Below, piece by piece: positions 9,466 to 21,960 of a stretch of DNA of 64,000 nucleotides. The stretch lies in the NCBI GenBank assembly GCA_015056205.1, contig SVGS01000013.1:1-64000 (forward strand), read 5' to 3'. The first letter of the stretch is position 1. Every line of letters starts with the position of its first letter. This stretch comes from Clostridiales bacterium. GTDB taxonomy: Bacteria > Bacillota > Clostridia > Christensenellales > Aristaeellaceae. The translations under genes and the position numbers were made by a program. The notes under the pieces are model-generated. The model had not been told where the DNA came from. It did not search any database and worked only from the letters and a program-made list of their open reading frames with translations.

Positions 9466-10953
9466 TCAGCAGAAGCTCCGAATCAGTTCAAGGATGCGGC
9501 GATTATATTCCGAGGCTTCCAAAAGCTTTTCCGGGACGATGGGCTCTCCCTGTGCGCCATCCCTGTAATATGCTATGATCCTGGTGATCAGGGTCTCCGG
9601 GTCGTCGTTCAGGATGCTTTCGATCTCCGGGGTAATCTGCGACGCATCCTCCGGCGGGAGGAACAGCGGTTCATCCGAATGCAGGAGCTTCGGGTAATTC
9701 TCCTCGATATACATGAGCAAATCGAACTCCCGTTTCACCACATCCGGATCATCATGAACCATATAGACACAGCCCGTCTCGGTTTCAAGGTCGATGGTTT
9801 CCCGCAGCCGTTCGGTCAGGCCCGCGTTTTCCACCCATCCGGAATAGTAGCTCTTCATGGCAAGCAGGATCGGGACGACCCCCGAAGATGAGATCGTCTG
9901 GTCACAGGCCGACGAAAAATCCTTTACATAGCCCTTGCGCAGGGGGCTGTAAGACCGCTGCCGGAACCTGCGGTGATATTCCACATCCAGCATGCTGTTC
10001 AGGATCACCTCCGTCTCATGGTAGCCGAACACCTTGTCCAGGAAACCGGCGGGCGCGCTGCCGCCCATGACGCGGCAGTTGGCTTCGATGAGGATGGGGC
10101 CGTTTTGGTCGATCATGTATTCCCCGTGAACCGGACCATCGGTGATCCCCAGGGCGGGAACTGCCCTGAGCGCATAATCGATCAGCGCTCTCTCCGTTTC
10201 ATCCGGAGCATTGACGGATTCCTGTCCGTTGTAGATGATCGCGCCGGACGGCGTGCGCTTTTTGTAATACCTGAATACGGAGGTCAGAGCCGGGATGCCC
10301 TCGCGGCTGATGGTGTTGACGATATATTCTGTGCCGAAGATCCGCTCCTGCAGCAGAAAACGGGTGTGCGCCTCGCCGAACATGTTGTTGCCGGCGCCGC
10401 GCTCCTGCTCGAAGGCCGCCCGGAGCTCTTCCCTGCCGTGAACCAGATGTACGCCCACCGCGGCCGCGCCGTGATCGTGCTTCAGGACGACGTCCTCCGT
10501 CCCCGCCTCCTCCAGGAACCTGAGACAGTCCTCCCAGTCCTTCACCTCCGTCCCGCGGATAGATCGCAGGCCCGCCCTTTTCAGGCTCCGGTGCATAGCG
10601 CTCTTCTGCGTCATGTTGGCGATATTGGCGTATGAGGTTCCCGGCATGCCGAGATCATCAGCCAGGCGCGTGCCGGTGATGACGCCCTCCTCGCCGCCCG
10701 CAATGACCAGCAGCGGGTCAAGCGCTTTGATCTCGCGAAGCGTCACATCGTAATCAGGATCCTCTTTGATGATCGTGATGGGATACTTGATGCGTGAATA
10801 CTTGACCTTGCGCTCCTGATCCAGTGTTCTTTTCGCGTAGCCGTCGGGAAGATAGGCTTCCAGGATCACGGGCTCGCATCCCAGGGCACGGATATCCTCC
10901 AGGTAGTTGAACGCGGTGGACGTAGCCTCCACCACAACGATTTTATTTTTCAT
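9466..10953 (-). CDS. ATP-grasp carboxylate-amine ligase-like enzyme
   Basis: 495 residues of the ATP-grasp superfamily. The N-terminal Rossmann-like domain begins KNKIVVVEATSTAFNYL. The nucleotide-binding part carries VVLKHDHGAAAVGVHLV (a phosphate-loop region), and the metal-binding part carries GEYMIDQNGPILIEANCRV. The architecture is that of L-amino-acid ligases and related dipeptide-forming enzymes; the substrate is unknown. The start at 10953 has GGAGG five bases upstream, within the last codons of the MATE gene. The two genes overlap by 11 bp and are translationally coupled, so the exporter may handle the ligase product (inference). The upstream ATG at 10968 is less well placed. Confidence 0.8.
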   Translation of the reverse strand: MKNKIVVVEATSTAFNYLEDIRALGCEPVILEAYLPDGYAKRTLDQERKVKYSRIKYPITIIKEDPDYDVTLREIKALDPLLVIAGGEEGVITGTRLADDLGMPGTSYANIANMTQKSAMHRSLKRAGLRSIRGTEVKDWEDCLRFLEEAGTEDVVLKHDHGAAAVGVHLVHGREELRAAFEQERGAGNNMFGEAHTRFLLQERIFGTEYIVNTISREGIPALTSVFRYYKKRTPSGAIIYNGQESVNAPDETERALIDYALRAVPALGITDGPVHGEYMIDQNGPILIEANCRVMGGSAPAGFLDKVFGYHETEVILNSMLDVEYHRRFRQRSYSPLRKGYVKDFSSACDQTISSSGVVPILLAMKSYYSGWVENAGLTERLRETIDLETETGCVYMVHDDPDVVKREFDLLMYIEENYPKLLHSDEPLFLPPEDASQITPEIESILNDDPETLITRIIAYYRDGAQGEPIVPEKLLEASEYNRRILELIRSFC

Positions 10954-12694
10954 AGCCGCCTCCTGCAATCAGGGTTGTGGAATTCAGGCCAAATATGTAT
11001 TCGTGCTTGATCTGAAAGAGCTTAATCAGCAGCACTTCATTGTCCGAAAGGTTTTCCCGGTCGGGCTTTATGGGATAAAAGGGCTTGCCGGGGCTCCGGC
11101 AGGTGATGATCGTTCTGTGCCTGTCCGCGCTGATCATGATATCCACCGGAGTGTCTGCGCCACAGTTTTCATGGATGTAAGCGCAGATTTCCTCTACCGC
11201 AAGGCGGGTCCGGATGACCGGCAGACGGTCCTCAAACTGCGGCGTCAGGGTCTCCTCCACGGTGCTGTCCAGCTCTCCGGTATCTCCCCGGATGGTAAAG
11301 GTATACAAGGCCTTGAGGGGGTTTTTCTCATCCAGCAGCAGGATCGGGGAATAGCGTCCCCGGGACCTTCGGTGGATGCAGAAATTCACCGCCAGCACCC
11401 CCAGCAGAAGCAGAACCATACTGACTGGGAAGGCCGCAATTATGCCATCGCCTCCGATGATCCGGTATAGGCAATAGCCTGCCACCGGGATGGATACCAC
11501 CTTGTCCAGCACGCCAAGAGCGGTGGCGTAGGCGCTCCACTCCAGGGTGTTGTAAATATCCCGCAGCGTCAGCAGCAGCGCCCGGGGGGGATAGTACAGT
11601 ACGTAGATGGGGGTCAGCCTGGCGATCAGCGCAAGCGACTCCTCATTGCGGACGTTAAAGACCTCCGCAATGGGCCTGGAAAAGCACGCAAAACCGATTG
11701 CCAGCACAGAACAGACCAGCGTGAGCCAGATGGCGACATTGCGGGTCATGGTGCGGATACCGTAGTAGTCGCCTTCGCCCTTGAGCATGGCGGCAAAGGA
11801 GGCGTTGTTGTCACCGATGCCGCCGATTGCAATGGAGATGACGGAATCCATCTGACCGAAAAGGGACATCGCCACCACGCCTGCCGCGCCGAAGCTGATA
11901 TTCATGAAGTGATCGCAGAAGATACCCGTCACAGCGTAGCCTGCCTGTACGATCCCCACGGGAAAGCCCTTTTTGACGATCTCGGCAATCACCCGCCGGG
12001 GGGCCTGCAGTCTGCGCAGTTTCAGCGGAACCTTCTGAATACGGCAGATCAGTAACATGGCGGCGAACGCGATGAGATAGGAGATCACCGTTGCCAGAGC
12101 CGCGCCCTCGCAGCCCATCCCGGCAACGCGAATGAAAAAGACATCGAGCCCCACGTTCATCACGTTGGCCCCGACCACCATCGCCATGGAAAGAAAGGGC
12201 TTGCCGACGATGGGCAGAAAAAAGGTGACGTTTGTAAACATGATGCCTGCGATCACGAACCAGCACAGGCAGAAGACATAGCGGTCGAAATCCTCCTTCA
12301 GCGCATCCGGACAGCCGAAAGGCCCGGCCAGCCGGGTGCGGAAGAGCATCAGCACGGTAAACAGGATGAGCCCCGCTCCCAGCGAGCTGATCACAGAGGC
12401 GGTAAAGCAGGCGTCCGCCCGGTCCTCCTCCTTCTTTGCGAGGTATTCCGCGTACAGAAGAGAGCCGCCCAGCCCTGTGATCGTATAGATCGTAGCGGCC
12501 ATGAATACGATCGGTACGGCAAGATTGACGATCGTAAAGGCGTTCTCGCTCAAAAGCCGGCCGACGATCAGGCTGTCCGCGAACTCGCTCAGCGAAACCC
12601 CCACAGCGGACAGCAGCGCCGGTATCATATAGATGCTGTATTTATGGTTGAGTATGGCCGCGCTTCTCTGGTATTTTTTTCGGTAAGTCTCCAT
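10943..12694 (-). CDS. MATE-family exporter with C-terminal degenerate GHKL/RsbW-like domain
   Basis: 583 residues. About 1-445 form a 12-helix MATE antiporter, opening with IPALLSAVGVSLSEFADSLI and containing ADACFTASVISSLGAGL. About 460-580 form a soluble tail: RLAVEEICAYIHENC resembles the N box of anti-sigma-factor ATPases, followed by CRSPGKPFYPI where the usual D-x-G-x-P-F motif has lost its Asp, and FGLNSTTLI as the last strand. The tail is therefore GHKL-like but probably unable to hydrolyse ATP. MATE proteins exchange Na+ or H+ for drugs or metabolites. The gene overlaps the ATP-grasp gene. The cytosolic tail may sense or regulate (inference). Confidence 0.8.
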   Translation of the reverse strand: METYRKKYQRSAAILNHKYSIYMIPALLSAVGVSLSEFADSLIVGRLLSENAFTIVNLAVPIVFMAATIYTITGLGGSLLYAEYLAKKEEDRADACFTASVISSLGAGLILFTVLMLFRTRLAGPFGCPDALKEDFDRYVFCLCWFVIAGIMFTNVTFFLPIVGKPFLSMAMVVGANVMNVGLDVFFIRVAGMGCEGAALATVISYLIAFAAMLLICRIQKVPLKLRRLQAPRRVIAEIVKKGFPVGIVQAGYAVTGIFCDHFMNISFGAAGVVAMSLFGQMDSVISIAIGGIGDNNASFAAMLKGEGDYYGIRTMTRNVAIWLTLVCSVLAIGFACFSRPIAEVFNVRNEESLALIARLTPIYVLYYPPRALLLTLRDIYNTLEWSAYATALGVLDKVVSIPVAGYCLYRIIGGDGIIAAFPVSMVLLLLGVLAVNFCIHRRSRGRYSPILLLDEKNPLKALYTFTIRGDTGELDSTVEETLTPQFEDRLPVIRTRLAVEEICAYIHENCGADTPVDIMISADRHRTIITCRSPGKPFYPIKPDRENLSDNEVLLIKLFQIKHEYIFGLNSTTLIAGGGYEK

Positions 12695-12824
12695 GCTGAA
12701 AAAACCTTCCTGCCATGAACCTTCTCGATGGCAACCTATTGTACCACTTCAGTCCGATCCGTTGCAACAAGAAGCAGGGAAATTCATAAAACCCCGCTGC
12801 CGGAAGGACAGCGTGGCGGTTATT

Positions 12825-12923
12825 TTATTTCTTCAGATAAATGTTCACAAAGATATCATGGAAATATGCGTCCGTTGTAATGGTGCCTGCAGGAATATCG
12901 ATACCGGAACGCGGTTCAGCCAT
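12825..12923 (-). pseudogene. C-terminal remnant of a solute-binding protein
   Basis: The frame reads IDIPAGTITTDAYFHDIFVN then IYLKK and a stop, which lines up with DLPAGAIITQPYFSDFTVTV at the end of the 5921-6952 protein. There is no ribosome site and no N-terminal part; it starts right after the tyrosine phosphatase stop codon. It is best read as a leftover of a paralogue deleted when the phosphatase gene was placed here. Confidence 0.5.
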
Positions 12924-12928
12924 TGAAA

Positions 12929-14101
12929 TCATTCGCCGAGGCCGGTACGAATCCGCGTGATCTCTTCCTCTGAGAGGCCGATCTCCAGCAGGTAGGCTTT
13001 CGCCGCCGCCTGCAGGTCGGCGTCCCGGATGTCCTCCGTCCGGAAGGCGGTGGCCAGGGATTTGCAGATATTGCTACCGGCAATGATGTCGTACTGTTCG
13101 GTTCCCGGCTTTACACCGTAGTAGTTAAAGAAGGAGACCATGTAGTCGGCAATCACCTCTTCCGCTGTGGCGCCCATCAGGCATTCCAGCACGGCGATCA
13201 CAAACCCGGCCCGGTCCTTTCCTTCCAGGCAGTGCACCATGTACGGCGCCTGATGATCGATCATGAAGCGGAGTCCCTTTGCCAGGCCGCTGCGGAAATC
13301 ATCTCCCGTGAAGATCATGCCCAGGTTCAGCGGGATAATCGCCTGTGTGCTGTAATAGGAGGAGTCAAATCCTTCATATCCGCGCATCACTTCCCCGTTA
13401 TCCTCCAGGTTGATAAAGGTCCTGATCCCGGCCGCGGCTGAGGCCCGGTCGGCATACAGGTTCCGCCTGATTTCGGGATTCACCGGAGAGGAGGAGCGGT
13501 AGAGCTTTCCAGGGCTGATCCCGGTGGTGGTGACAGCGCGAAAGTTCGCGAATTCCTCATCGCTCAGCTCCGGATAGTCCTCCCGTTTTTCACCGCGGAC
13601 CAGGTGGTGGCTGACGTACTGATCGTAGTATCCGCCCTGTTCCTTCATGGTTATGGAAACGCGTATCGGTTCCTGAATGCCCTCGTTCAGATGCCAGATA
13701 TACCCGGGTTCCTCTTCCGTCTTCTCCTTGGTGGCAATTCCGGTAACGGTGGCCAACTCGTCCATGTAAATCGCCAGAATCGTCCTGTCCTCATTGAGAT
13801 CCGGATCAATGGCCACGCGGCAGACCATGCTGCCCTGATCCACATCGGAAAAGTTGGAGCCGACCGGCATATCGTATCCGGTACCGTTGATCGTAACCGT
13901 CAAGATATCCCCGTAGGCATAACCGGCCTCCAGCAGCTCAGAGCCCTTCCGGGAAAGAACAAAGTTGCCGTATTTCTGGATTTCGGTAACGACCACCTCC
14001 ATATCTTCCGCTGCTTCCGCAACTTCCGCAGCTTCCGTGAAGGAGGAAACCGCAAGCAGCGCAAGGATCAGTACAAGCACCAGGGAAAGAAGTTTTTTCA
14101 C
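12929..14101 (-). CDS. secreted tyrosine-protein phosphatase (Y_phosphatase3-like)
   Basis: About 390 residues with a strong signal peptide (KKLLSLVLVLILALLAVSSF). An N-terminal beta-rich part (about 35-190) is followed by a Y_phosphatase3-like domain with the P-loop HCLEGKDRAG (C-x5-R) and the LYRSSSPV motif of this family. It should remove phosphate from tyrosine or another substrate outside the membrane. CGGAG touches the ATG at 14110 but lies nine bases before the GTG at 14101; starting at the GTG gives a standard (M)KK signal peptide, so GTG is preferred. Confidence 0.8.
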   Translation of the reverse strand: MKKLLSLVLVLILALLAVSSFTEAAEVAEAAEDMEVVVTEIQKYGNFVLSRKGSELLEAGYAYGDILTVTINGTGYDMPVGSNFSDVDQGSMVCRVAIDPDLNEDRTILAIYMDELATVTGIATKEKTEEEPGYIWHLNEGIQEPIRVSITMKEQGGYYDQYVSHHLVRGEKREDYPELSDEEFANFRAVTTTGISPGKLYRSSSPVNPEIRRNLYADRASAAAGIRTFINLEDNGEVMRGYEGFDSSYYSTQAIIPLNLGMIFTGDDFRSGLAKGLRFMIDHQAPYMVHCLEGKDRAGFVIAVLECLMGATAEEVIADYMVSFFNYYGVKPGTEQYDIIAGSNICKSLATAFRTEDIRDADLQAAAKAYLLEIGLSEEEITRIRTGLGE

Positions 14102-14311
14102 TGTCAGCATCTCCGATTATTTGGTCATTTTTTGGAGTCCTCCCGGTTATTGTACCGAAAAAGAACATAAACCGCAAGATGACAGAATGAAAAGATCATT
14201 CGGACTGAACCCGGTTCCAAAGCCATCCATAAAAAAATCCGCTGAAAAAGGAATTTGACAGCGGATGGGAGAAATAACAATGTAACCAAAAATGATAGGA
14301 GGACGGGTACC

Positions 14312-14827
14312 ATGATTGAACTGAGCAATGAAAGAATCGAGGAGATTCTGCACACTGAAACGAAGAAGACGGAAGCGCTTCCGCTCATTCTCCGCAGCAT
14401 CTATACGCGGTATATGAATCTGTTTGAGAATTATATTGCCAACCTGGATTCGCTGGATAACGACAAGATCGATGAATTCAGAAAATATCACGAAGAAACC
14501 CAAAGCCTGATCAAGTATTATTACATGGACATTCCCCAGGACATCTGCACGGATCTCGAAAAATTTGAGGAAGAGACAGGCAGTGCTCTGCTGGGGCGTG
14601 AATGGAAAAAGGTACTCTATGACGCCTATGACGAATTCAAAGAGCGCAGCAACGAGTGGGACATGAGCGAGGACTACTATAAAGCGGCGTTTAAAAAGCA
14701 TGCGCTGAAAGAATTCTACGCGGCCATGAGCGAGATTTTCAGAAGCGGCTTCGGCACCGAAAGCCAGACCGCCAAAGATATTATGGGCGGGATCTCCGGC
14801 CTGCTGTTCGGGAAAAAGGAGAAATAA
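14312..14827 (+). CDS. hypothetical acidic helical protein
   Basis: 171 residues, no recognised family. The chain is mostly predicted helix with many Glu, Asp, Lys and Tyr, and no signal peptide or membrane segment. The sequence contains FRKYHEETQSLIKYYYMDIP and ends in a glycine-rich GGISGLLFGKKEK that could be a short membrane-interacting tail. AGGAGG precedes the ATG; a TTGACA box at 14255-14260 is a possible -35. It has its own terminator. Confidence 0.7.
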   Translation: MIELSNERIEEILHTETKKTEALPLILRSIYTRYMNLFENYIANLDSLDNDKIDEFRKYHEETQSLIKYYYMDIPQDICTDLEKFEEETGSALLGREWKKVLYDAYDEFKERSNEWDMSEDYYKAAFKKHALKEFYAAMSEIFRSGFGTESQTAKDIMGGISGLLFGKKEK

Positions 14828-14844
14828 TCAGCCGGCGGCAGAAG

Positions 14845-14882
14845 GGGCTGTCTCACAAAATGATGCGGGACAGTCCTTTTTT
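14845..14882 (+). terminator. rho-independent terminator
   Basis: GGGCTGTC and GACAGTCC form an 8-bp stem (one G-U) with a 16-base loop, followed by six T. Confidence 0.7.
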
Positions 14883-14933
14883 ATGGGCAATCGCCCCAAA
14901 ACCGCGAGCACTGCATCCCCGAATTGGGAATAT

Positions 14934-14962
14934 TTGACAGTTTCATTCATAAATGATAGAAT
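14934..14962 (+). promoter_or_regulatory. sigma-A-type promoter of the DUF308-AarF operon
   Basis: TTGACA at 14934-14939 and TAGAAT at 14957-14962, with a 17-base spacer. Confidence 0.75.
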
Positions 14963-14974
14963 ATCCTGTATTCA

Positions 14975-15060
14975 TACGGCCTGCCGCAGGCCGTACACAA
15001 ACCGGAAGCGTAATCATGCAAAACGATCTCCCTCTGAATGCTCCGGAGGGAGGAGTTTTT
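14975..15060 (+). promoter_or_regulatory. structured leader with attenuator-like hairpin
   Basis: The transcript first meets a perfect 9-bp hairpin (TACGGCCTG / CAGGCCGTA, 14975-14995). A second stem follows (CTCCCTC / GAGGGAG, 15028-15052) with GGAG and five T after it, ending 20 bases before the first start codon. The second stem could act as an intrinsic terminator or attenuator. No riboswitch class was recognised. Confidence 0.45.
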
Positions 15061-15079
15061 GTGATATGGAGGGTTCAGT

Positions 15080-15628
15080 ATGCTGTTTCAGTCAATCAAC
15101 AAAATCAAACGGTCATCCATTGTCATCTCCATGACCCTGATCGCCCTCGGCGTGGTGATGATCATCTGCCCGGGGCGCTTCACGATGTCGCTGATTTCCG
15201 GTCTCGGGTACGCCGGTATGATCCTGGCCACCGTGATGGGGCTGGAATACCTGAACAGCAGGAAGACGGTCGTGAATGGGCTGCTGCTGGCCCTCGCCAT
15301 TCTGATCGGACTGCTGGGACTGGCGATTGTGGTCTTCAGTGATTCCGTGCTCCAGATTCTCGGATGGACCTTCGGCATTCTCCTGATCCTGCAGGGGATC
15401 GAGCTGTTCTATAACGCGCTTATGTACGTCCGGCCCGCCGGAAGAAAAGGCTGGTGGCTCCTTGCCTTTCTTGCCCTGCTGCTTGCCGTGGCGGGCGTAC
15501 TGATTCTGCTGAACCGGTGGTGGGATACGCCCCGGATGCTGCTGAAAGTCATTGGCATGGCGCTTCTGTTTGACGCGGCGGTCGGGATCATCCGACTGAT
15601 CTTCATCTGGCCGATCAAGGGCGAGTAA
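15080..15628 (+). CDS. DUF308/HdeD-like membrane protein
   Basis: 182 residues with six predicted membrane helices in three similar pairs, as in DUF308 (HdeD) proteins: MTLIALGVVMIICPG, then FGILLILQGIELFYNAL and VIGMALLFDAAVGIIRL. HdeD in enterobacteria is tied to acid resistance; the role elsewhere is unknown. GGAGG precedes the ATG. It is first in an operon with the AarF-like kinase, 14 bp apart. Confidence 0.8.
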   Translation: MLFQSINKIKRSSIVISMTLIALGVVMIICPGRFTMSLISGLGYAGMILATVMGLEYLNSRKTVVNGLLLALAILIGLLGLAIVVFSDSVLQILGWTFGILLILQGIELFYNALMYVRPAGRKGWWLLAFLALLLAVAGVLILLNRWWDTPRMLLKVIGMALLFDAAVGIIRLIFIWPIKGE

Positions 15629-15642
15629 GGAGGAAATGAACC

Positions 15643-17496
15643 ATGGAGAATAAAGAGAACAGAGCCGAAAAACCGGCTGAGCGGAAGACGCCGCAGCCCA
15701 CGTTCACCGATAAGGTGAAGCAGCGGGCGGAAGAATGGACCGAAGCGCTTGAAAAAAACCGGGAACAGCGGGCCGGCGCGCGCGAAAAGAGCAAAGCGGC
15801 CATTCACCGGGAACTGGAAGAGCGGATGAAAAAGCTGCAGCATACCCAGGCGGAGCTGAGCGATAAGCTGAAAAACCTGCTGAAAAAAGAAATCAGCGAA
15901 CAGAAGCGAAAGGAAAAGCACCGCGCCGCGGAAATCATCGGCGTCTTTTCCGCGCATAACTTTTATGCCAACGGATTCACGCCGGAAGAGATGCGCAGCA
16001 CGCTGGAGGATCTGGGACCGACCTATGTCAAGATCGGCCAGATCATGTCCAGCCGCGTGGATCTGCTGCCGGAAAGCTACTGCCGGGAGCTGGAGAAGCT
16101 GAGGCAGAACGTGAAGGAACTGGATCCGCAGATTGCCCGGGCGGTCATCGAGCAGGAGGCCGGCAAGCCGATCGATGAGATTTTCAGCGAGTTCCGGGAT
16201 AAGCCCCTGGGGTCCGCGTCCATCGGCCAGGCTCATTACGCGGTGCTGAAGGATGGCACGAAGGTCGTCGTGAAGGTGCAGCGGCCTCTGATCGCCGAGA
16301 TGATGCGCAACGACTATGTGCTGCTGAAAAAAGGTGCGGCCATGATCAACGCCATCGACGACGCGAAGGATGACGACGAGGAAAAGGTGGACCTTCTCTC
16401 CGTGATCGAAGAAATGGAAAAGGTCACGGAGGAGGAACTCGATTTCCGGATTGAGGCGGAAAACACCCGTTTCTTCAAAGAAAACTGTATTGAGGATGAA
16501 ACGAAGATCAGCTGCCCGTCGGTGATCGACGAGCTGACGACGGAGCGGATGTTCACCATGACGTTCGTGGACGGCTGCTCCATCGGAAAGAAGGACAAAG
16601 TGATCGCCCAGGGCTGCGACGTGAATCAGCTCGGGACGGTGATCGTCGAAAACTACCTGCACCAGATCCTTGACATCGGCACCTTCCACGCCGACCCGCA
16701 TCAGGGCAACCTCATGGTGTCCGGCGGCATTCCGTACTGGATCGATTTCGGCATGATCGGCCGGATCTCCGAAGCGGACGTAGGAATTCTCCAGAACCTG
16801 GTTCTTTCCCTGGTGAACGGCGATATGGAGGCGCTGGTCAACGCCGTGATGTCGATGGGCGCGGCTTCGCCCAGAACCAACCGCAACAAACTGCTGGATG
16901 ACGTCGAGGTGATGTTCGGCAAGTATATGAACGTCACCAGCATCAACGACCTCGACCTCGGCGCGGTGCTGGAGGAAGTCATTGATCTTTGCACCCGGCA
17001 TTTTATCACCCTGCCCGGGAGGTATACGATGCTCGTGCGCTCCATCGCCACCTTCGAGGGCGTCCTGGAGCAGCTGTGCCCCGACCTGAACCTGTTTGAG
17101 CTCGTTTCCGGAAAGCTGATGGAACGGGCCAGAAAGAACCTGGACGTCAGTCAGGAGCTGCTTTCCGCCGGCAGGAACGCCCTGGAGATCGGCAGGAAAA
17201 CGGTGAAGCTGCCGCTTCTGGCCTCCGACGCGCTGAACAGCATGCTCAAGGGCCGGATGAAGATGAACATGGAGCTGACGGGGTATGAGGAAATCCTGAA
17301 AAAAACGGAGACTACGGTTTTCAATCTCGTTCTCGCGCTCTTTTCCTGCGTTCTGTTTTTCGGCTCCTGCATCCTGACCACCGCGGATATCAACCCCAAA
17401 ACATCCGGCGGGGTTCCGCTGATCGCGGCTGTGGGAATCGTATTCTCCATCGCGCTGGCGATTTTTACCGTCCGGAAAATGCTCCGGAAGAAATAA
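15643..17496 (+). CDS. AarF/UbiB/ABC1-family atypical kinase
   Basis: 617 residues. A charged coiled N-terminus (about 1-95) precedes the UbiB fold, with YVKIGQIMSSRVDLLP (the KxGQ motif), the Ala-rich loop PLGSASIGQAH, VVVKVQRP (nucleotide lysine), FHADPHQGN and WIDFG (catalytic and metal residues). Two hydrophobic C-terminal segments (about 560-612) anchor it in the membrane. UbiB proteins are ATPases that support isoprenoid-lipid (quinone) synthesis or handling; this anaerobe may use it for another lipid. AAGGAGG lies before the ATG. Confidence 0.85.
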   Translation: MENKENRAEKPAERKTPQPTFTDKVKQRAEEWTEALEKNREQRAGAREKSKAAIHRELEERMKKLQHTQAELSDKLKNLLKKEISEQKRKEKHRAAEIIGVFSAHNFYANGFTPEEMRSTLEDLGPTYVKIGQIMSSRVDLLPESYCRELEKLRQNVKELDPQIARAVIEQEAGKPIDEIFSEFRDKPLGSASIGQAHYAVLKDGTKVVVKVQRPLIAEMMRNDYVLLKKGAAMINAIDDAKDDDEEKVDLLSVIEEMEKVTEEELDFRIEAENTRFFKENCIEDETKISCPSVIDELTTERMFTMTFVDGCSIGKKDKVIAQGCDVNQLGTVIVENYLHQILDIGTFHADPHQGNLMVSGGIPYWIDFGMIGRISEADVGILQNLVLSLVNGDMEALVNAVMSMGAASPRTNRNKLLDDVEVMFGKYMNVTSINDLDLGAVLEEVIDLCTRHFITLPGRYTMLVRSIATFEGVLEQLCPDLNLFELVSGKLMERARKNLDVSQELLSAGRNALEIGRKTVKLPLLASDALNSMLKGRMKMNMELTGYEEILKKTETTVFNLVLALFSCVLFFGSCILTTADINPKTSGGVPLIAAVGIVFSIALAIFTVRKMLRKK

Positions 17497-17511
17497 CGGC
17501 CCCGGATTCGG

Positions 17512-17610
17512 TTATGGCTTCCTTCCTCCCCTTCTTCCGCGCCGGATAAACCGGTACGCCGCCAGGGACAGGTCGAGAATCAGCAGGATCCTCCGGGTTG
17601 TCTCTCGCAT
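17512..17610 (-). CDS. small hydrophobic-cationic peptide (32 residues)
   Basis: MRETTRRILLILDLSLAAYR continues as FIRRGRRGGRKP: one possible short membrane helix followed by a strongly basic tail. GAGGAG lies nine bases upstream of the ATG. It sits 69 bp downstream of the diguanylate cyclase on the same strand, so it may be co-transcribed. No family was recognised. It could be a regulatory membrane peptide or chance; the ribosome site favours a real gene. Confidence 0.4.
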   Translation of the reverse strand: MRETTRRILLILDLSLAAYRFIRRGRRGGRKP

Positions 17611-17679
17611 CGTTCATCACTCCTCGGCCGGAACGGATTCCGTGTCCGGCAGCCTCCCGCTTCGGGGCGATTTCTTGGG

Positions 17680-18762
17680 TCAGCCTCTTCTTCTCCGGTC
17701 GATGTGGGAATCCGCGTAATATTTTGCCTTTTCCGCGTACATCCGGCGGTCTGATTCCTTCTGCATCTCGCTGACCGTCTTTTTCCCGTTTCCCCGGCAG
17801 CACCACCCGATGGAGCACCGGTACTTTGTTTCCGCCACTTTCTCCCGGATGCGCTCAACCAGGGCGGCCGCCTCTTTCTCCGCCGTATCCCGGCAGAGGA
17901 TGATAAATTCGTCCCCGCCGATCCGGTAGATGGACTGCATCCGGCTCATCGCGCTGCGGAAGCAGTCCGCCAGGGTGATCAGCGCCTCGTCTCCCGCGGC
18001 GTGTCCCTGGGAGTCGTTGATCCGCTTGAGCCCGTTCATGTCGATGGTAACCAGGGCGGTAATGTTCTCCGGGCTGGTTTCGCTGTCGTCATAGAAGGCC
18101 AGGCGGTTCAGCGTCCCGGTCAGTGGATCCTTCTTGCTCATCTGGTGCATGGAGAATACATTGTAGACATACAGGGAAATCAGGATGGTCGGGCAGAACA
18201 TCTGGGCGAAGTCCGGGCCGAACAGGAACGGAAAAATCAGGCCGGAGGCAAAGGCCAGCGCCAGAAAAGCAATCGGAAAGAGCTCCGTGTAGAGCCGGTT
18301 GCTCTGCAGGTACAGCACCGCGATCAGGCAGACGCCGTACAGCCCGGCCACGATGAAGGGCAGGTATCCCAGGGGGCCGCGCCGCAGCACGCCCTCCTCC
18401 GTCAGCCCGAAGACAACGCCGGTGAAAATGGATATGATATTGAGGACGGCGAGCAGAATGGCGGGAATAAAGACAAACCATTTCATCCGCCCCGGCAGCG
18501 TATACAGAACCATCGCGACAATCAGCGGCGTGGCGCTGTACCGGACGGCCATCAGGATGGTGCGCTCCGTGATATACCTGCCGTGCTCCGCCAGATAGAA
18601 TTCCGTGAATACAACCGCCGAAAGGGCGACGACGCACCCGATCAGCAGGTACATGCGCTTTTTCCATTCCCTGTTCTGCTGTCCTGAGGTTTTCAGGGAG
18701 ATCACGAACGCGACCGCGATCAGGATCAGCGTCCAGTTCTGCAGGATATATCGGCTCAGCAA
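17680..18762 (-). CDS. membrane diguanylate cyclase (GGDEF)
   Basis: 360 residues. Six or seven N-terminal membrane helices (about 1-205) form the sensor, followed by a GGDEF domain starting KDPLTGTLNRLAF, with the active-site loop RIGGDEFIIL. It makes cyclic di-GMP from two GTP. No RxxD inhibitory site is visible at the usual distance before GGDEF, so product feedback may be missing. The start is TTG with GGAGGA eight bases upstream. Confidence 0.85.
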   Translation of the reverse strand: MLSRYILQNWTLILIAVAFVISLKTSGQQNREWKKRMYLLIGCVVALSAVVFTEFYLAEHGRYITERTILMAVRYSATPLIVAMVLYTLPGRMKWFVFIPAILLAVLNIISIFTGVVFGLTEEGVLRRGPLGYLPFIVAGLYGVCLIAVLYLQSNRLYTELFPIAFLALAFASGLIFPFLFGPDFAQMFCPTILISLYVYNVFSMHQMSKKDPLTGTLNRLAFYDDSETSPENITALVTIDMNGLKRINDSQGHAAGDEALITLADCFRSAMSRMQSIYRIGGDEFIILCRDTAEKEAAALVERIREKVAETKYRCSIGWCCRGNGKKTVSEMQKESDRRMYAEKAKYYADSHIDRRRRG

Positions 18763-18787
18763 GTTGATTCTCCTCCGGTTCGGTTTG

Positions 18788-19012
18788 CTATTTTCTGAAT
18801 TTATGGACAGCCAGTCCGATGCACAGCACGCCCAGCACGATCAGACCGATCCACAGCGCCGGATTCGCGCTGTCCCCGGTCTTCGGTACGGGCTTCGGCG
18901 TAGCGGTGGGTGCAGCGGTAGGCGCGGCGGTCGGACCCCAGCAGCTTCCTGCCCGTTTTCTGTTCCATACAGCATTCCCCCCTGAGTGATCCCGAATGAT
19001 AAAACCCGGCAA
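18788..19012 (-). pseudogene. orphan cell-wall sorting tail (VPKTG type)
   Basis: After about 24 unrelated residues the frame reads GPTAAPTAAPTATPKPVPK then TGDSANPALW, a hydrophobic segment and KFRK. It is a second full VPKTG sorting signal with its proline-threonine spacer but no surface domain. The fused N-terminus is not convincing coding sequence, and an overlapping frame is open too. It lies 100 bp from a GACAGGGGACGG hairpin. Confidence 0.55.
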
Positions 19013-19115
19013 GGCTGACAGGATCCGTGTCCGACATTCACGATCCTTCTGCCTGAATTCTATATTTTTTATATCATACCAGAATCGAAAACCTTTAACA
19101 AGACTGCTATTGATT

Positions 19116-19166
19116 GGAGACAGGGGACGGTTCCGCGTCTCCTGTCTCCACCGTTCCCCTGTCTCC
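19116..19166. repeat. GACAGGGGACGG dispersed repeat (copy 3), long hairpin
   Basis: GGAGACAGGGGACGGT and ACCGTTCCCCTGTCTCC pair over 16 bases with a one-base bulge, around an 18-base loop that holds another GTCTCC pair. It lies 5 bp past the stop codon of the amino-acid ABC ATPase. Confidence 0.8.
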
Positions 19167-19171
19167 CTTGT

Positions 19172-20263
19172 TCAGGCCTTTCGGATGACCAGGCGCAGGC
19201 AGTTGGGTAGTTCGGAATCCTCCTCCCGGGTATAGGTCATAGAAGAGGTGATCCCTTTCAGCACCGTCATGCCCAGATCCCCGGTTTCTTCGGTCAGGTC
19301 CAGCCGCTTCCCCGCGTAGCGGATGGTCCATTCCGCGGTTTCCGTTACCTCGGAATACTCGCATACCGCCCGGATCCGGGGATGCTCCATCCCGGAAAGC
19401 AGCATCTGCACGGTTTCCTCGAAAGCCAGGCTGATGTAACCGGCCGTCCGGAAAGCGATCTGGTTTCTGGCGCAGTATGTCCCGATCTGCTGCGCCGCGC
19501 CCGGGAAGTCGAACTCCCGGCTTTCCACGTTCAGCTCGATCGTCTTCAGCTTCCGGATAAAGCGCCGGGTTTTCTCCCTCTGCGGATGCTCAAAGATCTG
19601 CTCCGGCGTGCCGTCCTCATAGATCCCGCCTTCATCCATAAAGAAAATACGGTTGCTGATGGCCCGGGCGAAGTTCATTTCATGGGTCACGATCATCATG
19701 GTCTTCCCGGTTGTCGCCAGATCGCGGATGACCGCCTGTACCTCCCCCACCATGGTGGGATCCAGGGCGCTGGTGGGCTCGTCCAGCAGGATCACTTCCG
19801 GATCCATCGCCAGAGCCCGGGCGATCGCGATGCGCTGCTTCTGTCCGCCGGAAAGCTCATCCGGAAAGCTCAGTTCCTTCTCCGCCAGGCCTACCGTGTG
19901 CAGCAGGCGCATCCCATCGTCATAGGCTTCCTGCGCGTCTTTTCCCAGCAGGTCCATGGGCGGCCTCATGATATTCTCGATCACGGTCCAGTGGCCGAAA
20001 AGGTTAAAGCTCTGGAAAACCATGCCCATCTTCCGCCGCACCCGGTTGATATCGCATTTCCGGTCCGTGATTTCCTCTCCGTCCAGCCAGATGCGTCCGG
20101 AGGTGGGCATTTCCATCTGGTTGATGCAGCGCAGCAGCGTGCTTTTTCCCGTGCCGGACGGCCCGATGACGCTGATGACATCCCCGTCGTGGATTTCAAC
20201 GCTCACGTCCTTCAGGGGGGTGACATTGTCGTATTCCTTTTTCAGATGCTCGATCTTAATCAT
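19172..20263 (-). CDS. polar amino-acid ABC transporter ATPase with GHKL-like C-terminal extension
   Basis: 363 residues against about 245 for the family. Residues 1-240 are a standard GlnQ/HisP-type ATPase: Walker A GPSGTGKST (34-42), LSGGQ (137-141), VILLDEP (157-163), then THEMNFAR. Residues 241-363 are an extension. SLAFEETVQMLL (278-289) resembles an anti-sigma ATPase N box, DLGMTVLKGITSSMTYTRE resembles the G2 region, and LRLVI is a last strand. The metal-site Asp expected before the GK motif is Tyr (IRYAGKRLD), so ATP use by this part is doubtful. It overlaps its permease partner by 8 bp. Confidence 0.85.
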   Translation of the reverse strand: MIKIEHLKKEYDNVTPLKDVSVEIHDGDVISVIGPSGTGKSTLLRCINQMEMPTSGRIWLDGEEITDRKCDINRVRRKMGMVFQSFNLFGHWTVIENIMRPPMDLLGKDAQEAYDDGMRLLHTVGLAEKELSFPDELSGGQKQRIAIARALAMDPEVILLDEPTSALDPTMVGEVQAVIRDLATTGKTMMIVTHEMNFARAISNRIFFMDEGGIYEDGTPEQIFEHPQREKTRRFIRKLKTIELNVESREFDFPGAAQQIGTYCARNQIAFRTAGYISLAFEETVQMLLSGMEHPRIRAVCEYSEVTETAEWTIRYAGKRLDLTEETGDLGMTVLKGITSSMTYTREEDSELPNCLRLVIRKA

Positions 20264-21797
20264 GCCGCCTGACCCCCTTCAGAATCCCGGGCTGCGTGCC
20301 CTTCTTCGGTTTGGAACCGATCCGGATCCGGCTGATGCCAAAGGCGAACAGCCCTTCCAGCACAAAATACACCACCGTAACCGCAATGAGGGGGAAGAAG
20401 GCTTCATAGGTGCGGCTGCGCACGATGTCGCCCATCTTGGTCAGATCCTGCACCGCGATATAGCCCACGATCGCGGTCGCCTTGATCAGTTCCACGATTT
20501 CTCCCTGATAGGCCGGAAGCACGTGGGGGATCGCCTGGGGCAGGATGATCTGATAAAAGGTCCTCCGGTTGCTGTAGCCGAGGGCGTAGGCCGCCTCAAA
20601 CTGTCCCCGGTCAATGGCCCCGACGCCCATCTTCAGCAGGCCGAATACCGACGCGGCAAAGGTGAGCGTGAAGCCGATCACCGCCACGGTGATGCCCGGG
20701 ATGGCGATGGAGGCGAAGACGATGTAGTACAGGATCATCATCAGCACCACCACGGGCATGCCCCGGACCAGCCAGATGAAAAACCGGGCGATGCCGTTGG
20801 CGACGGGGTTGCCGTTCCGGCAGGCCATATACACCATGAATCCCAGAATCGTGCCGAAAAGAAGGGAAAGCACGGTGATCAGCAGGGTGGTGCCGATGCC
20901 GCTCAGAAACATCTGCCAGCGGTTTTCCCGAATGAAGGTTTTTTCAAAGCTGGCTGCGATTCCTTCCGGAGCGTCTCCCTGCCGGCCGCCGGCCGCGGCA
21001 GCCCCGTCCGGCCGGAGAACCACGGCCACCGTCCCGCCGGTGAAATACGGTTTTGAAAACAGGACGCTTTCCTCCCGCTCCGGGGTGATCGTGATCCCCG
21101 ACACGGCGAGCTGGCATTTTCCGGACTGCACGGAAGGCAGGATCCCGTCAAAATTCATATTCACAATCTGCATGCCGTAGCCCCGCTCCTGGCAGAACAG
21201 GGCGACGATCTCCAGATCGTAGCCCACGACCCTTCCGTCGCGTACATACGTGAACGGCGCGTAGTCGGCCTCCGTCGCCACCCGCAGCGTTCCGTTCGTT
21301 GCGGGCAGGGAGGCGGGATCCGGCATGGTCTTCCGGCTTTCATCCCCGGCGAGCCACTTTTCCTTCAGGCTCTCCGCCGTCCCGGCGGGCAGGCCGTCCA
21401 GGAAGGCGTTAAACTCGTCCCGCAGTTTCGCGCCCTGCTCGTTTTTTGCAAACACACAGCCGAAGGAAAAGGTATCCAGATATTCCGGCAGCCAGGTAAG
21501 CCGGGGAGTTTCGTAGGACATCAGCCGCGCCACCGGTTCATCCACGATAATAGCGTCGATCTTTTTCCCGATCAGGGCTTCCGCCAGATCCGCCTTGTTG
21601 TTGTAATATTCGATCCGGGCTTCCGGCAGCTGCGTTTCCACCATTTTGTCAAAGCTGCTGCCGGTCTGCACCCCGATGATTTTTCCGTTCAGTTCTTTCA
21701 GGGACGGCAGGGCGCCTGTCCCCGCCTCCTCCGCCCCGGCGGAAAGAAACGCCATGAGCAGCAGGGCGGCCAGCCCCGCGAAAAACCGTTTTTTCAT
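20256..21797 (-). CDS. amino-acid ABC transporter: substrate-binding and permease fusion
   Basis: 513 residues. A signal peptide is followed by two SBP_bac_3 lobes, the second opening LRVATEADYAPFTYVRDGRV with the ligand region KCQLAVSGITITPEREE. A HisM/GlnP-type permease forms the C-terminus (about 290-505), with the EAAYALGYSNRRTFYQIILP coupling loop that contacts the ATPase. It takes up a polar amino acid as a self-contained binding-protein/channel polypeptide. The ATG at 21797 has AGAGGTGAG upstream; an earlier in-frame ATG at 21938 lacks a ribosome site and would bury the signal peptide. Confidence 0.9.
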   Translation of the reverse strand: MKKRFFAGLAALLLMAFLSAGAEEAGTGALPSLKELNGKIIGVQTGSSFDKMVETQLPEARIEYYNNKADLAEALIGKKIDAIIVDEPVARLMSYETPRLTWLPEYLDTFSFGCVFAKNEQGAKLRDEFNAFLDGLPAGTAESLKEKWLAGDESRKTMPDPASLPATNGTLRVATEADYAPFTYVRDGRVVGYDLEIVALFCQERGYGMQIVNMNFDGILPSVQSGKCQLAVSGITITPEREESVLFSKPYFTGGTVAVVLRPDGAAAAGGRQGDAPEGIAASFEKTFIRENRWQMFLSGIGTTLLITVLSLLFGTILGFMVYMACRNGNPVANGIARFFIWLVRGMPVVVLMMILYYIVFASIAIPGITVAVIGFTLTFAASVFGLLKMGVGAIDRGQFEAAYALGYSNRRTFYQIILPQAIPHVLPAYQGEIVELIKATAIVGYIAVQDLTKMGDIVRSRTYEAFFPLIAVTVVYFVLEGLFAFGISRIRIGSKPKKGTQPGILKGVRRHD

Positions 21798-21925
21798 ATT
21801 CTCACCTCTTGTGTTCTCCCGGCCCGGAAGGCCCGTTTTCGCTCCCGTCCGGCTCCCGGACCCCCGGCGAGGATCATTATAGCACAATTCCGGTGCCCGG
21901 TGTCCCTGCCCGGGAAAACCGGCTG

Positions 21926-21960
21926 GCAAAAAAAGCACCCCCGGCGGGTGCTTTTTTTGC
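21926..21960. terminator. bidirectional rho-independent terminator
   Basis: GCAAAAAAAGCACCC and GGGTGCTTTTTTTGC form a perfect 15-bp stem around CCGGC, with a T-run on both strands. It closes the minus-strand alpha-galactosidase/zinc-ribbon unit. Confidence 0.9.

Follow-up and report, generated by a model that had tools for sequence, protein, structure and literature searches.

RsbW-like tails on a MATE transporter and a polar amino-acid ABC ATPase of a Clostridiales bacterium as candidate docking domains for partner-switch proteins

Two transporter genes and their C-terminal tails

We have analyzed a stretch of DNA of 64,000 nucleotides from a Clostridiales bacterium (contig SVGS01000013.1 of assembly GCA_015056205.1). 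This whole stretch (64 kb) is called here the window and corresponds to contig C39 of the source genome, G000, of 2.94 Mb. Two open reading frames (ORFs) on its minus strand code for a MATE-family transporter and for a polar-amino-acid type ABC ATPase, and each of them extends about 125 residues past its transporter part. A first-pass annotation of this DNA had described both extensions as degenerate RsbW-like domains and quoted four strings from them, all of which are present in the MATE and ABC ORFs. The features of both proteins are the following.

10943..12694, minus strand: MATE-family transporter with C-terminal pseudo-RsbW tail, 583 amino acids (aa); MatE E 4.7e-20 (Pfam)
10946..11332, minus strand: MATE tail, residues 455-583; diverged HATPase_c_2/RsbW-like domain (profiles, alignment A6)
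11162..11206, minus strand: N-box-like helix of the MATE tail, RLAVEEICAYIHENC; both Glu present, Tyr at the Asn position
11078..11101, minus strand: CRSPGKPF in the MATE tail; Ser at the DxG Asp position, Gly present
19172..20263, minus strand: polar-amino-acid type ABC ATPase with C-terminal pseudo-RsbW tail, 363 aa; ABC_tran E 1.3e-36 (Pfam)
19175..19561, minus strand: ABC tail, residues 235-363; RsbW/SpoIIAB fold (structure model)
19397..19432, minus strand: N-box-like helix of the ABC tail, SLAFEETVQMLL; both Glu present, Gln at the Asn position by alignment
19298..19324, minus strand: IRYAGKRLD in the ABC tail; Tyr at the DxG Asp position, Gly present

In the MATE ORF, Pfam matched MatE (PF01554) over two stretches and a simple hydropathy scan found 10 segments; MATE proteins have 12 membrane segments. 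Residues 455-583 are soluble and lie beyond the last hydrophobic segment, with a maximum hydropathy of 0.76, and the tail has a gap of five residues in its last helix with respect to the other rows of alignment A6. The closest NCBIfam models to the ABC ATPase were TcyN/GlnQ, the best 25 of its 189 NCBIfam matches being all under the cut-off, and we therefore assign it no substrate.

Homology of the tails to RsbW-type domains and loss of catalytic residues

The two tails are homologous, and the earlier reading of them as RsbW/SpoIIAB-like agrees with the structure model in the case of the ABC tail and with profiles in the case of the MATE tail. The model of the ABC tail has a Bergerat/RsbW fold and its best structural alignment is with RsbW-type chains, so that this tail is predicted to have the RsbW/SpoIIAB fold. 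For the MATE tail, an RsbW/SpoIIAB-like domain is supported by sequence comparison. We carried out a jackknife in which a hidden Markov model (HMM) of the 49 other MATE tails, with the window one left out, was run against 4120 decoy ORFs plus 400 shuffled tails. The window MATE tail appeared at rank 1 (E 1.7e-6) and the window ABC tail at rank 2 (4.7e-6). They were followed by a tailed acyl-CoA synthetase (2.3e-5) and a protein of 226 aa whose helix is similar (4.1e-5), both of which look like additional carriers of the tail domain, and further down by a fragment of a MATE with tail (3.4e-4) and, at 7.1e-4, by the first histidine kinase.

The comparison of profiles gave the same picture. With the first sets, hhalign aligned the MATE tails (A6) with the ABC tails (A3) at 99.0% (E 8.7e-18), and the values against the canonical domains (A7) were 95.4% for the ABC tails and 98.2% for the MATE tails. 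With larger sets from which the window tails had been removed, the figures were 99.1% between ABC and MATE tails, 98.2% between ABC tails and canonical domains and 99.7% between MATE tails and canonical domains; reversed profiles gave 0.5-1.7% and unrelated profiles 0.1-0.6%. As a single sequence, the window MATE tail scored 95.0% against the MATE tails, 65.4% against the canonical domains and 30.4% against the ABC tails, and the window ABC tail 95.8% against the MATE tails and 40.7% against the canonical domains. Sequence searches of PDB found nothing significant, either with the MATE-tail profile (best match RsbW, E 0.18) or with the ABC-tail profile (best E 1.4, with an unrelated name). Pfam HATPase_c_2 did match 11 of 41 ABC tails of relatives at E<=1, the best at 8e-8.

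We examined the motifs after aligning 88 ABC tails and 50 MATE tails together with 24 canonical domains; one ABC, two MATE and three other rows had been left out as too short. The pair of Glu in the N-box helix was present in 88/88 ABC and 49/50 MATE tails, the remaining MATE row having Asp-Glu. The N-box Asn serves Mg2+ and the Asp of the DxG motif serves adenine. The former was present in 1/88 ABC and 27/50 MATE tails, and the latter in 35/50 MATE tails and in none of the 88 ABC tails, 68 of which have Tyr instead. The DxG Gly was kept in 85/88 ABC and 15/50 MATE tails, and the last Gly of the G2 region in 11/88 ABC tails (the window one among them) and 47/50 MATE tails (the window one lacking it). 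All four motif residues came together in 1/50 MATE tails. Each of these four residues was found in 24/24 canonical domains, partly by construction, since this group had been chosen by similarity to canonical domains. By motif, then, the ABC tails appear uniformly dead and the MATE tails mixed. The claim that the tails are degenerate therefore holds throughout for the ABC tails and only in part for the MATE tails, many of which retain the Asn or the DxG Asp. In the window, both the N-box Asn and the DxG Asp are gone from the two tails, with the Asp replaced by Ser in one and by Tyr in the other according to the alignment, as had been proposed. Because these residues are lost, neither tail is expected to phosphorylate a STAS protein on Ser. 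The ABC tails look to be under purifying selection. The ratio of nonsynonymous to synonymous substitutions (dN/dS) was 0.07-0.45 in 16 of 17 close pairs, which overlap one another, and the remaining pair had no dS value.

Tail carriers and partner-switch genes in related genomes

We considered that the tails might be special to this window and rejected it, as the module was found across family, class and phylum genomes. A scan of related genomes, suggested in the first-pass annotation, brought up the same tail on further MATE and ABC proteins, and NCS2 and SDF transporters also carry related domains. A profile of the three source-genome ABC tails matched 61 of 200 family genomes at E<=1e-3, some of them only in frames of MATE size. 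The strong matches were mostly frames of about 365 aa and the weaker ones largely of about 580-660 aa. Ten of these longer proteins were read, besides a SpoIIE one, and look like a MATE transporter plus the tail. Three further tailed proteins had their MatE domain confirmed by Pfam, which matched HATPase_c_2 as well in those of L028 (2.4e-9) and L279 (6.6e-10) and not in that of L214. Since Pfam recognises HATPase_c_2 in some MATE proteins, the tailed-MATE architecture is visible in databases. The MATE-tail profile (A6) matched 106 of 200 family genomes at E<=1e-6, a figure that includes SpoIIE-linked, standalone and ABC-linked domains. Beyond the family, the ABC-tail profile was found in 16 of 341 class genomes (12 at E<1e-20) and the MATE-tail profile in 12 of 348 phylum genomes, with the source genome included in both counts. 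The window MATE tail searched alone gave weak matches in 4 of 200 family genomes, its own included; L135 and L136 are tailed MATEs, and the match in G059 (L137) was discarded as a glycosidase-like ORF with no tail. Named relatives, searched with the closer ABC-tail alignment A4, came from 50 loci of metagenome bins, mostly Clostridia or Clostridiales and many from ruminant gut, two being labelled Treponema. The loci retrieved contained 89 ABC fusions, 52 MATE fusions and 28 other carriers. The related genomes and paralogues behind all these counts are not independent.

Some of the carriers have unusual architectures. The amino-acid importers made of one polypeptide (substrate-binding domains, permease, ATPase and tail) measure 909-1173 aa, and two of them were confirmed by Pfam. 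In the SDF proteins, the tail-like part was detected by the tail HMMs at 2e-8 and 5e-5 (2e-4 for L069 in the larger set) and not by Pfam. The NCS2 tail appeared in 3 of 300 family genomes, G096 among them.

L065, L066, L067, L068, L069, L083, L283: single-polypeptide ABC importers with the tail
L069 5771-7528 and L283 5979-7607: SDF symporters with the tail-like domain N-terminal rather than C-terminal

The phylogeny of 115 tails placed each of five groups (MATE, ABC, canonical, NCS2 and SDF) on one side of a branch. The support was moderate overall (65/84 for MATE, 93/84 for ABC and 86/68 for canonical). As each tail group separates on one branch, the tree fits few fusion events per transporter class. 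The window MATE tail is a long branch, grouped (82/87) with the L154 MATE tail, which belongs to the second MATE of the L224 locus described below. We also saw proteins of 204-230 aa that stand alone and have, besides a similar acidic helix, a long insert (L188 828-1487, L190 841-1476, L109 17968-18645, L164 2435-3046 and L095 19256-19945). Those of L188 and L190 adjoin larger ORFs with a canonical HATPase domain, and no convincing Pfam match was found in the two that were scanned, L188 and L109.

The source genome itself has several carriers. There are two relatives of the ABC tail, one at C20:24314 (27% identity), an intact amino-acid ABC ATPase of 364 aa, and one at C31:80886 (46% identity), an ABC ATPase without its 5' part. 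The C31 gene (L007 1171-1890) is the 3' part of an ABC-tail gene that abuts a GNAT/nucleotidyltransferase-like ORF. HATPase_c_2 (PF13581) had 19 matches in this genome at E<=1, several of which resemble histidine kinases and three of which are MATE transporters (C31:51161, C9:61837 and C17:60018). In the last of these (L028) Pfam found MatE together with HATPase_c_2, and it adjoins, at C17:57920, a SpoIIE phosphatase with a HATPase_c_2 domain of its own. Other source-genome matches of the window MATE tail (L002-L005) could not be confirmed as tail carriers. An AMP-binding acyl-CoA synthetase at C17:66349 (L028 11718-13700) has a C-terminal HATPase_c_2-like tail (Pfam 2e-4, tail HMM 5.5e-8), and is thus a carrier that is not a transporter.

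Relatives of both fusions are located in operon-like runs with genes of the partner switch. In the source genome (C42, L214), a SpoIIE phosphatase (504 aa), an RsbW (137 aa), a STAS protein (98 aa) and a MATE with a diverged tail (571 aa) are consecutive on one strand. In genome G096 (L224), about 12.5 kb of one strand code for two MATE, one NCS2 and a fragment of one ABC protein with tails, along with three STAS proteins, a SpoIIE and an RsbW. The order there is MATE with tail, an HD-like protein (a label read by eye), STAS, NCS2 permease with tail (Xan_ur_permease 5.4e-48 and HATPase_c_2 0.048 in Pfam), fragments of an ABC permease and of an ATPase with tail, STAS, MATE with tail, ATP-grasp, STAS, SpoIIE and RsbW. 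In L279 (G912), 6.5 kb hold STAS, NCS2 with tail (by HMM only), STAS, MATE with tail and a full-length ABC with tail. L283 (G461) and L069 (G144), from different families, each have STAS, SpoIIE with HATPase_c_2, an SDF with the N-terminal tail-like domain and a substrate-binding protein-permease-ATPase-tail importer. STAS, SpoIIE and intact RsbW genes were found beside tailed relatives (the C42 cassette, L224, L283, L069 and L291) and not beside the window genes.

In order to put numbers on this linkage, we took 40 of the first 45 non-own rows for the MATE tails (leaving out G096:C88:37283, which is inside L224, G179, G170:C91, G163 and G185) and 20 of the first 25 for the ABC tails within the family (leaving out two of G094, G178, G155 and G119). 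Among the 40 MATE-tail loci, SpoIIE was present in 10 (0.72 expected, P 1.3e-9), STAS in 16, RsbW in 9 and any of them in 19, and in 11 a STAS or SpoIIE frame was on the same strand within 250 bases. The 20 ABC-tail loci had SpoIIE in 2 (0.31 expected, P 0.039), STAS in 1, RsbW in 2 and any in 3. The expected numbers of SpoIIE are genome densities with rounded genome sizes. On these counts, the linkage is strong for the MATE tails and mainly anecdotal for the ABC tails. Of the loci L280-L292, hand-picked and so only illustrative, 7/13 have a SpoIIE, STAS or RsbW gene. All 30 STAS matches in the retrieved flanks have Ser or Thr before (A/S)G(L/I), which we take to be the phosphorylated site.

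In the window, next to the ABC ATPase there is a fusion of a substrate-binding and a permease domain, presumably its partner, so that Pfam shows the ATPase together with the SBP_bac_3 and BPD_transp_1 parts of a polar amino-acid importer. The MATE gene and an ATP-grasp ligase ORF overlap at the 3' end of the former, and the MATE might export the product of this ligase. The pair MATE - ATP-grasp was seen again in G096 (L224 8387-10078).

20256..21938, minus strand: SBP_bac_3 - BPD_transp_1 fusion, 560 aa (Pfam); its ORF shares 8 bases with the ABC ATPase ORF
9466..10968, minus strand: ATP-grasp ligase, related to the PRK07206/DdaF models, below cut-off
12929-14110, minus strand: tyrosine-phosphatase-like protein upstream of the MATE gene (Y_phosphatase3 2.5e-12), with a signal-like N-terminal segment read by eye
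17680-18762, minus strand: GGDEF protein (Pfam 8.7e-25), encoded between the MATE and ABC genes

Partner switching as a possible route to transport

We think it somewhat more probable than its opposite that both tails are pseudo-RsbW docking domains by which RsbV-type STAS proteins control transport. Partner switching among RsbW, STAS and SpoIIE proteins is described in PMC10120452, and MlaB-MlaF (PMC7367683) is an earlier case in which an ABC ATPase has a STAS protein on it. With both in mind, it is simplest to suppose that dephosphorylated STAS proteins dock on the dead tails and alter the activity of the transporter. In this reading both tails belong to the RsbW/SpoIIAB branch of the GHKL fold, have lost ATP-binding residues and became fused to transporters. 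A signal would set the activity of a SpoIIE/RsbU-type phosphatase, an intact RsbW would phosphorylate the STAS proteins, and these, once dephosphorylated, would bind the dead tails and thereby activate or shut down several transporters at the same time, namely amino-acid ABC import, MATE export, and NCS2 nucleobase and SDF dicarboxylate/amino-acid symport. It is in this way that we infer the docking of STAS, its dependence on phosphorylation and an effect on transport with its sign. The two proteins of the window would be wired to such a switch through a STAS partner encoded elsewhere in the source genome, where 6 SpoIIE and 6 STAS matches were above the cut-off. The first-pass annotation had proposed a shared signalling input to both transporters. 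The operon-like runs of relatives of both fusions with STAS, SpoIIE and intact RsbW support it, whereas the closeness of the two window genes is not in itself evidence, because the module recurs through the genome and the family.

Several observations weigh against this interpretation. No SpoIIE, STAS or canonical RsbW match was found in the 64 kb of the window at the thresholds used, and the ABC-tail loci seldom had such genes nearby. The MATE tail of the C42 cassette was detected by the tail HMM and not by Pfam, and is a long branch in the tree. The window MATE tail is highly divergent and has no recognisable G2 glycine. About half of the MATE tails keep Asn and Asp, so that some of them may still bind ATP. 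Neither window tail alone had a Pfam match at E<=10, PF13581 included, the HMM of canonical domains gave weak values on both (E 0.072 for MATE, not significant, and 0.18 for ABC), and the ABC-tail HMM was not significant on the window MATE tail (E 0.69). The lack of Pfam matches and the weak score of the MATE tail against canonical domains could speak for a chance similarity between two transporter-specific extensions. We consider it scarcely credible and have rejected it in view of the jackknife, the reversed profiles and the modelled fold of the ABC tail, with the MATE tail being placed by its sequence.

Other functions for an RsbW-like tail have to be weighed as well. RsbW-type domains dimerise, and the tails could be oligomerisation or assembly modules that pair transporter subunits with no STAS input. 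This would explain why the fold is retained while the ATP motifs are lost, and 17/20 in-family ABC-tail loci had no module gene in the stretch retrieved; in addition, MlaF self-dimerises through its C-terminal extension (PMC7367683). We hold this to be unlikely given the enrichment of SpoIIE beside MATE tails, the operon-like runs common to tailed transporters and STAS genes, and the presence of one domain on proteins of differing architecture. The transporter might instead be the sensor, with the MATE tails that have Asn and Asp acting as active kinases that phosphorylate STAS according to the transport state. The motif residues that many MATE tails keep (the last G2 Gly in nearly all) and the STAS or SpoIIE frames close by on the same strand are in line with it. 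Yet the complete motif set was found in a single MATE tail and the Asp in no ABC tail, and such a role is unlikely for the window tails because both are without Asn and Asp; overall we regard it as distinctly improbable. Other ABC importers have ligand-binding tails, and a remodelled GHKL pocket could bind a small ligand (nucleotide, amino acid or substrate) for allosteric feedback. The pocket of the ABC tails seems to have been altered consistently, as the Asp is mostly replaced by Tyr while the Gly is retained, but the gene context indicates protein partners and the same tail is present on transporters with different substrates, making this very unlikely.

Whether docking of STAS on the tails extends to a whole branch is an even bet: the proposal is that gut Clostridia of this branch use RsbU-RsbV-RsbW switching on pseudo-RsbW tails of at least four transporter classes (MATE, polar amino-acid ABC, NCS2 and SDF). 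If true, a single phosphatase signal would reprogramme import and export post-translationally, the fused and catalytically dead RsbW domain would offer a general way, open to testing, for a phosphatase signal to reach transport, and there would be a function for a domain that Pfam reported in only 11/41 ABC fusions tested. Partner switching is known mainly for the control of sigma factors. SypA/SypE (PMC10120452) is an exception, and PMC7367683 calls the post-translational regulation of ABC transporters not well understood. Among the open-access full-text matches listed, with most subscription papers and all bioRxiv preprints outside the coverage, we found no description of transporter-fused RsbW domains. 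In our judgement the parts of the switch are known ones, and what is new is an output fused directly to them.

There are several known systems with similar elements. The anti-sigma kinases RsbW, SpoIIAB and UsfX (HATPase_c_2, PF13581) are among them, but here the RsbW-like domain is fused to transporters, has lost Asn and Asp in both window tails and is missed there by Pfam. In MetN-type ABC ATPases, too, the ATPase is followed by about 100 regulatory residues, in their case a C-terminal ligand-binding NIL domain. We rejected a NIL-type tail for the window ABC ATPase, since Pfam shows no NIL match in it (its filters can drop weak matches) and the model aligns best with RsbW-type chains. The SulP/SLC26 transporters have a partner-switch domain fused to a transporter too. 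However, their STAS domain is the opposite partner, and here it is the RsbW side that is fused, to MATE, ABC, NCS2 and SDF proteins. In SypE-SypA and BtrW-BtrV (PMC10120452, the Btr pair from its references), the chemistry of kinase and STAS protein serves biofilm or secretion, while here transport is proposed as the output, by way of domains fused to the transporters. MlaB-MlaF resembles the proposed mechanism in that a STAS-type protein acts on an ABC ATPase, and MlaF also has a C-terminal extension (PMC7367683). That extension is of about 25 aa and is not an RsbW domain, whereas the ATPase described here carries the kinase-like partner covalently.

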